Below, one piece after another: positions 1,207-60,792 of a stretch of DNA of 64,000 nucleotides (the first letter of the stretch is position 1; every line of letters starts with the position of its first letter). The DNA lies in NCBI RefSeq assembly GCF_003340345.1, contig NZ_PPTQ01000008.1, forward strand, positions 62,001 to 126,000, written 5' to 3'. The notes beneath the pieces were generated by a model, which saw nothing but the letters and a program-made list of their open reading frames with translations, made no database searches and was not told the DNA's origin. Source of the stretch: Paraeggerthella hongkongensis (GTDB lineage: Bacteria; Actinomycetota; Coriobacteriia; Coriobacteriales; Eggerthellaceae). Both the position numbers and the translations under genes were made by a program.

Positions 1207-1348
1207 TGTCAAAACGATCGAGTTTTGCGGCGATTTTCCGCCTTCTCGGGGTTGTTCGCTGATGCGTGGTTTTCGTTATCCCAGTTCAGAAGCTTATCGA
1301 CTTGCTTTATCCTGGTTTGAGGACCAGCAAAACTCGTCCGTTTTGACA
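1207..1348 (+). repeat. Palindromic-ended dispersed element, copy 1
   Basis: This 142-base element starts TGTCAAAAC and ends GTTTTGACA. Each end is itself a small hairpin of the form CAAAAC-N6-GTTTTG, and the two ends form inverted repeats of about 22 bases. Next to the right end is a second hairpin, CTGGTTTGAGGACCAG. A second copy lies in inverse orientation at 49653-49793; right arms and adjoining ~20 bases are identical, the middle has diverged. No open frame inside looks real and no target-site duplication is visible. It resembles a MITE or a structured regulatory repeat. Confidence 0.85.
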
Positions 1349-38573: not shown

Positions 38574-39087
38574 CCTGTACCTTTCCCTTCTCGTTTGCCT
38601 TTATAAAGCGTTCGGACGCGACCCGCCGTCTTCGAGGGGAACATGCGGCGGATTCGGCGCGTTGAGAGCAGTTTGCACCGCTCGCCGCGCGGCGTCATCG
38701 CAAGATCGCCGTGAAAGCATCATTACTTACAATTTGACTATGCCTGCGCGCCCGTCCGCGCAGGTTCCATCGCCCGCGCGGCGCCACGGCGCAACGCCGC
38801 GCCCCCGCCGCGGGAAGCACTGCGCAAACGCGTTTCATAGCCCCTGATCAATGGCATCATTACGTATCCCTACTACTTTTTTTGCGATGCACCGATTTTT
38901 AAGTATCGCCGAATTACCATGCGCCTTGCGATGCAACGGCATAGCTGCGATCGCTAGTATTCAGGGCAGTTGTTCGAGCGAGTAAAACACGACGGCGGCA
39001 CGCTGCAATCGAGCCGAATCACGTGCGGAACATCGCTCGGCGCCACGCGCGGCTTCGCGCGAAATCGCAACCAGTCAAGGAGGAGCA
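38574..39087. promoter_or_regulatory. Divergent fixA/enoyl-CoA hydratase control region
   Basis: The 514-base spacer contains no convincing gene. It holds two identical GCATCATTAC sequences, at 38717-38726 and 38854-38863, each in an AT-rich setting within GC-rich DNA. Between them is a strong hairpin (GCGCGGCG 38776-38783 with CGCCGCGC 38795-38802). This looks like a shared regulatory region for the two transcripts. The regulator that would bind is unknown. Confidence 0.5.
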
Positions 39088-42156: not shown

Positions 42157-42209
42157 CGAGCCCACGGGCGCGCCCCGCACCCGCGAGAGGGCCGTGCGCT
42201 CGCAAAATC

Positions 42210-42387
42210 GCGTTCGCTGGCGGTTTTTGACGGTTTGAGGTCGTCATGCGACGCGCCACAAGTGCATTCCAACATTTACTGCATCAGCGCAAAGCCCTGA
42301 ACTGGGGTGATACGATGCAAGCTGTTCGTGTGCACCCACGAAGGCTCGCCCAACAACCTCAAACCGTAAAAACCTGCCAGCGAACGC
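42210..42387. repeat. MITE-like inverted-repeat element
   Basis: The left arm 42210-42244 (starting GCGTTCGCTGGCGG) and the right arm 42353-42387 (whose complement starts GCGTTCGCTGGCAGG) match over about 35 bases with a few differences. Weaker similarity continues outward to about 42195 and 42402. The 108-base centre has no credible gene. It is not the same sequence as the element at 1207 and 49653. There is no transposase inside. Confidence 0.75.
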
Positions 42388-42714
42388 CCTATTTGCTGCG
42401 CAACCCGGAACGGCCGAGCGAACAGGAGCCCATCGAGCGGAATTCGCCCAAGTGCGACCGGTCGAGGGCGCGCGACGCCGAGCGCGAACGTGCGCCGCCA
42501 ATCGCGAGAAGTCGCACGCGGGCAACGAAGGTCCGCCCGCGCACGATCGCAAGCGGGCGCACTTGCCGGACGACGCCCGACCAGGCGCGCCCGCTCCGCA
42601 AAGGCGCACGCCGCCGGACGCAAGCGGGCGGCGCAAGCTCGTGCCTGTGCCGCCCGCGTTTCGCGCCCTCGCATGAAAAGCCGCGCCCGCCCTGAAGACG
42701 CGCAGCGCCCCAGG

Positions 42715-49652: not shown

Positions 49653-49793
49653 TGTCAAAACGGACGAGTTTTGCTGGTCCTCAAACCAGGATAAAGGCAA
49701 GTCACAACTTCGTGACCTGGGGAAATAGAAATCGGAGTCTCGCGAAACCTCCTCCGCAGAGCAAAACCGCCGCAAAACTCGTTAGTTTTGACA
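49653..49793 (-). repeat. Palindromic-ended dispersed element, copy 2 (inverted)
   Basis: This 141-base element reads TGTCAAAAC...GTTTTGACA and is the reverse complement of the copy at 1207-1348. The arm with CTCAAACCAGGATAAAG and the outer hairpins CAAAAC-N6-GTTTTG are conserved, while the central ~60 bases differ strongly. Conserved ends with a variable middle point to selection on, or mobility through, the ends. Confidence 0.85.
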
Positions 49794-60641: not shown

Positions 60642-60792
60642 TGCACGATTCTTTCCCCAATGTTGCGTCCGAGAGGCGTACGAAGAGGCGGACATCGACG
60701 CGACCGCGCGTTTTGCCTGGTCGCGATCATTCGCCGCCGGCGGACGGGCCTCAACATGCACTCGCGCGCAACATTGGGGAAAGAATCGTGCA
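60642..60792. repeat. Inverted-repeat element with 26-bp perfect arms
   Basis: The arms 60642-60667 (starting TGCACGATTC) and 60767-60792 are perfect 26-base complements. About ten more bases match imperfectly on the inner side. The 99-base centre is GC-rich without a gene. No target-site duplication or transposase is visible. It resembles a MITE inserted downstream of trxA. Confidence 0.85.

Follow-up and report, generated by a model that had tools for sequence, protein, structure and literature searches.

Several systems of short, repeated palindromes have been described in bacterial genomes. In REPINs and REP-BIMEs, which are linked to RAYT transposases, two inverted palindromes surround a diverse spacer, and the many intergenic copies persist by vertical inheritance (PMC8049555, PMC1525189); they are also targets of IS3-family insertion (PMC1525189). 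The ERIC, Correia and RUP families of MITEs are non-coding intergenic elements of 100-210 bp with inverted ends, found in tens of copies (PMC10969869). Small palindromic repeats are usually viewed as genomic junk or parasites, and whether such repeats are functional, and what maintains them, is a long-standing question.

The elements presented here are like both groups in these respects, the link to RAYT transposases apart. They were noticed in a stretch of 64,000 nucleotides (hereafter the window) of a Paraeggerthella draft genome of 2.86 Mb, the source genome, in which a first-pass annotation had described two inverted copies of one 142-bp sequence. This sequence, family A, belongs to a superfamily of inverted-repeat elements of the Eggerthellaceae that are small, intergenic and non-coding. 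At 142 bp, with 22-bp terminal inverted repeats and an intergenic position, it has the build of a MITE, whereas the target-site duplication and the autonomous partner expected of one, and present in the ERIC, Correia and RUP comparison, were not found, in 66 copies and in two draft genomes respectively; the families described here also share a core and not their ends, and the elements were restricted to the Eggerthellaceae in these searches, similarity to ERIC, Correia or RUP being judged by Rfam and pattern searches. Paired inverted palindromes with a diverse spacer are equally the build of a REPIN, but no linked RAYT (Y1) gene was found, the length is nearly fixed, families with different ends have a central core in common, and no ends on their own were seen outside interrupted copies. 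Distribution and anatomy are thus like those of both groups, yet the elements cannot be filed as MITEs without reserve, having neither target duplication nor partner, or as REPINs, the source genome having no Y1 transposase. No report of such elements in Eggerthellaceae was found in the literature searched, which covered few subscription journals, and the set is apparently new.

Family A in the window and in two genomes

The window contains two copies of family A together with one element each of two further families, B and D, with the following features:

1207-1348, plus strand: family A copy 1, 142 bp; orthologous copy in P. hongkongensis, L080
1207-1228, plus strand: left inverted end of copy 1, TGTCAAAACGATCGAGTTTTGC, an imperfect palindrome by itself
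1268-1288, plus strand: central core of copy 1, alignment columns 62-82, common to families B, C and D
1307-1327, plus strand: right block of copy 1, columns 101-121, TTATCCTGGTTTGAGGACCAG
1327-1348, plus strand: right inverted end of copy 1, GCAAAACTCGTCCGTTTTGACA
42195-42402, minus strand (core on minus): family B element, 208 bp, inverted ends of about 50 bp, degenerate copy
49653-49793, minus strand: family A copy 2, 141 bp, centre one base shorter; orthologous copy in P. hongkongensis, L079
49653-49674, minus strand: right inverted end of copy 2, no mismatches to the 22-bp end pattern
About 49712-49732, minus strand: central core of copy 2, with CCAGGTCA as its last bases on the minus strand; located by counting along the sequence
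49772-49793, minus strand: left inverted end of copy 2, one mismatch to the 22-bp end pattern
60646-60788, plus strand (core on plus): family D element, 143 bp, ends CGATTCTTTCCCCAATGTTGCG and CGCAACATTGGGGAAAGAATCG

The first-pass annotation had the coordinates and ends of the two inverted copies right. Both start with TGTCAAAAC and finish with GTTTTGACA, and the near-identity that it saw at their right ends corresponds to a CTGGTTTGAGGACCAG block common to the two. The hairpin that it drew at each end, CAAAAC-N6-GTTTTG, is present in the sense that GTTTTG and CAAAAC flank six bases at all four ends, save for one substitution on the loop side of 49772-49793. Four matches to the 22-bp end pattern were found in the window (up to three mismatches), against 0.00 expected from 100 dinucleotide shuffles. 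Immediately to the left of copy 1, at about 960-1190, lie degenerate tandem repeats of a gaagcaggtccgcgggct-like unit.

As a description of the element, two copies fell well short. The wider search with the 22-base ends that had been proposed returned 71 matches in the whole source genome and none for a reversed control; nearly all of these form pairs at a spacing of 120 bp, which amounts to about 38 copies of family A. This is contrary to the outcome, no further copies and one old duplication, that the annotation had named as its own refutation. The genome of Paraeggerthella hongkongensis DSM 16106, the only other one of the genus in the set searched, likewise has 71 end matches and about 37 copies. 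Beyond these two, 138 other Eggerthellaceae genomes yielded one single hit, with two mismatches, and a scan of named-species genomes matched P. hongkongensis only, records of the source genome itself being possibly absent from that set. A phage or plasmid origin was considered and rejected, with no blastn match and no match to the end pattern in viral contigs; the bare 16-base core pattern matches 44 viral contigs.

Whole copies extracted from both genomes number 66, of which 60 are exactly 142 bp long, and 61 sequences were aligned. The ends are invariant or nearly so. Inside them lie a left block (GGCGRTTTT), a core at about columns 62-82 that reads GCGTTTTnCATCATnCCWGGTCA overall, and a right block (TTATCCT-N6-AGGACCAG), separated by two spacers, at about columns 38-60 and 83-99, that are fixed in length and near-random in sequence. 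The centre, which had been taken to be free, therefore carries an almost invariant core at fixed spacings. Solitary ends were seen in interrupted copies only. At one locus (G000 C3:16044-16266, L010), three left ends stand in tandem, about 40 bp apart, beside one full copy.

All 66 copies lie clear of genes, as judged with a simple codon-usage caller on the stretches around them, and the flanking genes have no favoured orientation (16 ++, 13 --, 12 -+ and 8 +-). A coding role was rejected, 142 not being a multiple of three and no frame being consistent. A promoter for neighbouring genes was rejected as well: CCWGGTCA-N18-TTATYCT is promoter-like in families A and C, but family B has no second box and there is no orientation bias. 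Replication-strand bias, taken from the sign of GC skew (20 versus 14), was uninformative. Elements adjoin several contig ends of both draft assemblies, and a perfect 23-bp palindrome around one locus (L053), also at a contig end, was taken as an assembly artefact.

Probable constraint in place and sister families

The two species have 31 family A loci in common, of which 26 are intact in both and five are split by an insertion sequence on one side. These were compared as hand-built ortholog pairs, with regional divergence taken from the 21 pairs of equal length. The ends differ by 5.6-6.9%, the left and right blocks by 6-8%, the core by 9%, and the spacers by 18-22%, whereas the flanks differ by 30% and have 0.81 gaps for every 100 bases, a figure that falls to 0.15 within the element. 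Ends and core thus evolve about three times more slowly than the spacers beside them, and the element has about five times fewer indels than its flanks. Between paralogs at different loci, about 60% of spacer positions differ against 8% of end positions. Paralogous ends are hardly more different than orthologous ends, which is contrary to the prediction of neutral decay and argues for constraint in place. On this two-species comparison, selection appears to hold ends, core and length intact where they stand.

Families B, C and D were detected where one species lacked family A and had another inverted-repeat element in the same gap. Their ends differ from those of family A and from each other, and all four families have the central core (about CATCATnCCWGGTCA) in common, near the middle of the element. 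Family B, of 208 bp with ends of about 50 bp, has about 42 copies in the source genome against three end hits in P. hongkongensis; family C, exactly 151 bp in 11 of 11 copies, is found in P. hongkongensis and not in the source genome; and family D, of 142-144 bp, is present in both. That B and C are each nearly confined to one species suggests either spread after the split or loss in the other species. Several family B sites are without the element in the sister species (e.g. L205/L222), most gaps differing beyond the element, and family A sites are mostly shared and ancestral. Precise swapping of families at one site, of A for B or C at three sites and of D for B at three more, was considered and rejected as unnecessary, since the whole gap differs and chance sharing of long gaps suffices. 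At window position 38830, a core-like sequence (GCGTTTCATAGCCCCTGATCA) has no clear inverted ends and is possibly a decayed element.

A sequence-only model of family A also gave weak matches in 11 other Eggerthellaceae genomes. The best of these are full-length or nearly so and belong to inverted-repeat elements, 125-163 bp long, whose core is the same but whose ends are different; some of the weaker matches are probably due to chance. In one other genus, the ends TGGACAAAAACGCGAGTTTTC occur 120 bp apart at about a dozen loci and form a 142-bp element once more. When its consensus is laid without gaps over that of family A, 54-57 of about 141 positions agree when the shift lies between -1 and +1, and 28-38 agree when it lies outside this range. 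Length and core are retained while the ends change.

Mobility, proposed protein docking and alternative readings

Since the flanks of different family A copies are mostly unrelated, the copies must have been dispersed, which is most naturally read as the outcome of a non-autonomous mobile origin. The first-pass annotation had offered a choice between such a mobile element and paired sites for a protein; the dispersed copies and conserved ends point to both at once. Neither a transposase gene with matching ends nor a longer gene-bearing element with the same ends was found in the two draft genomes. Among the 66 copies, there was no convincing excess of direct target-site duplications of 3 bp or more, and an excess at 2 bp consists of palindromic GC. 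The source genome, which is 99.9% complete, has no match to Y1_Tnp (PF01797), and neither of two matches in P. hongkongensis adjoins the ends of a family A-D element.

The elements are themselves hit by a 1551-bp IS3-like element, which has the rve integrase core and HTH_21 domain typical of the IS3 family. Its full copy at L130:813-2363 (G000 C34:104312-105862) lies in a family A copy and has a single reading frame of 479 amino acids. Six of eight insertions (two in the source genome, four in P. hongkongensis) hit the left end of family A, with point and orientation identical throughout; one is in family B and one elsewhere, so that seven of eight fall in elements that cover roughly 0.5% of the genome. 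In the copy of the source genome that can be read on both sides of the insertion, AAAC is duplicated. The four family A elements interrupted in P. hongkongensis are intact in the source genome. The REP-targeting IS3 elements IS1397 and ISKpn1 provide a known parallel (PMC1525189). Like these and ISPsy8, the 1551-bp element enters one fixed point of a repeated palindrome, but what it enters is a 142-bp element, always at the left end and in one orientation.

On balance, we regard the elements as MITE- or REPIN-like in origin and retained as candidate protein-docking sites, a probable reading in which mobile origin and host role are combined and in which most of the doubt concerns function. The copies would have spread as non-autonomous elements through some protein acting on their palindromic ends, which would account both for dispersal to unrelated sites and for the lopsided numbers of families B and C. 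Once in place, ends and core, held at set distances, would be bound by at least one host protein to form a nucleoprotein complex; if loss of this complex were costly, the conservation of ends, core and length would follow. The conserved core, the fixed spacing and the constraint in place all point towards such a complex with a host role, and its effect may be on how the chromosome folds, on transcription or on the way in which the element is copied. A bolder and distinctly tentative extension is that these are an ancient Eggerthellaceae class of dispersed nucleoprotein elements, in which a dedicated protein, bound to the two ends and the core at their fixed spacing, co-diversifies with the ends from genus to genus, copies are maintained by the host, and the whole is a domesticated replicator unlike REPIN/RAYT. 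With ends, core and length seemingly under constraint at loci common to two species, and with an architecture that recurs in other genera under different ends, the question of whether such repeats are functional, and what maintains them, can be put to the test in gut bacteria that grow in culture; the related Eggerthella lenta already has genetic tools (PMC9734109).

The same conserved ends could instead form the stem of a structured RNA, be it a processing site, an attenuator or a small RNA. Single copies do fold strongly (z -6.0 and -4.4), as expected from their inverted ends; departures at four predicted stem pairs are mostly to G-U rather than A-C; and in families B and C the two outer arms of one copy complement each other better than they do the arms of other copies, for which repair of imperfect palindromes may be an alternative source. 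Yet compensatory double change was found at one of 19 consensus pairs across 61 family A copies, and columns 11/132 and 12/131, which pair the two ends, combine at random, as do hairpin columns 27/32. There is also no strand or orientation preference relative to genes, and an Rfam search with the element at two thresholds gave no match. The two ends behave like independently constrained DNA sites, as separate binding sites would. A structured RNA is thus a rather improbable explanation, and action of the elements as RNA is disfavoured, although the G-U departures and the outer arms of families B and C leave room for an RNA or hairpin role.

The other readings turn on mobility. An ordinary old MITE family, spread by a transposase that has since been lost and now decaying without function, would explain the short, non-coding, dispersed and intergenic inverted-repeat copies as well as the absent partner, its conserved ends reflecting common origin. 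We consider this unlikely, as it does not fit ends and core that evolve about three times more slowly than spacers, indels about five times rarer than in flanks, end variation that is equal in orthologs and in much older paralogs, or a length and core that recur in another genus. True REPINs, in which two inverted REP sequences are copied by a RAYT (Y1 tyrosine) transposase, match in their inverted palindromic ends, diverse spacer and long vertical inheritance (PMC8049555), but are very improbable given the distribution of Y1_Tnp set out above and a conserved central core that does not figure in the REPIN descriptions consulted. The inverted repeats around a core, followed in families A and C by a TTATYCT box, could also be read as an invertible (phase-variable) promoter or a recombination site that flips itself or the DNA between inverted copies, and one inversion does have its breakpoint beside a copy (see below). 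All 26 intact orthologous pairs keep their orientation, however, there is no bias towards gene starts, and family B is without the second box. The first-pass proposal that the two window copies might invert the 48 kb between them fared no better: in P. hongkongensis the same pair lies 48.0 kb apart (C12:28039 and C12:76084), the interval is collinear and the flanks are on the same sides. Such an invertible switch is accordingly a barely credible account of the elements, and protein docking on elements of mobile origin is the reading that we retain.

Rearrangements beside copies

Two differences between the species are associated with copies, and are given as associations only. In the inversion just mentioned, of 1.4 kb, one breakpoint lies 30 bp away from a copy of family A (G000 C12:29217-30620, L139, versus G001 C3:75826-77229). 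A 7.2-kb segment between two direct family A copies (G000 C4:22003-29358, L142) is missing in P. hongkongensis together with both copies; judged by eye, it carries molybdopterin-oxidoreductase-like and iron-sulfur-like genes.

At a further site, of two P. hongkongensis copies 3.7 kb apart (L038 and L039), one has the left flank and the other the right flank of a single copy in the source genome (L008), either through deletion by recombination between direct copies or through misassembly at a contig end. Finally, one family B copy (L205:479-880) has an 11-bp perfect inverted repeat in its flanks, and the corresponding B-less site of the sister species (L222:8826-8960) is without the right arm, as if, in this single case, insertion had produced an inverted rather than a direct duplication.
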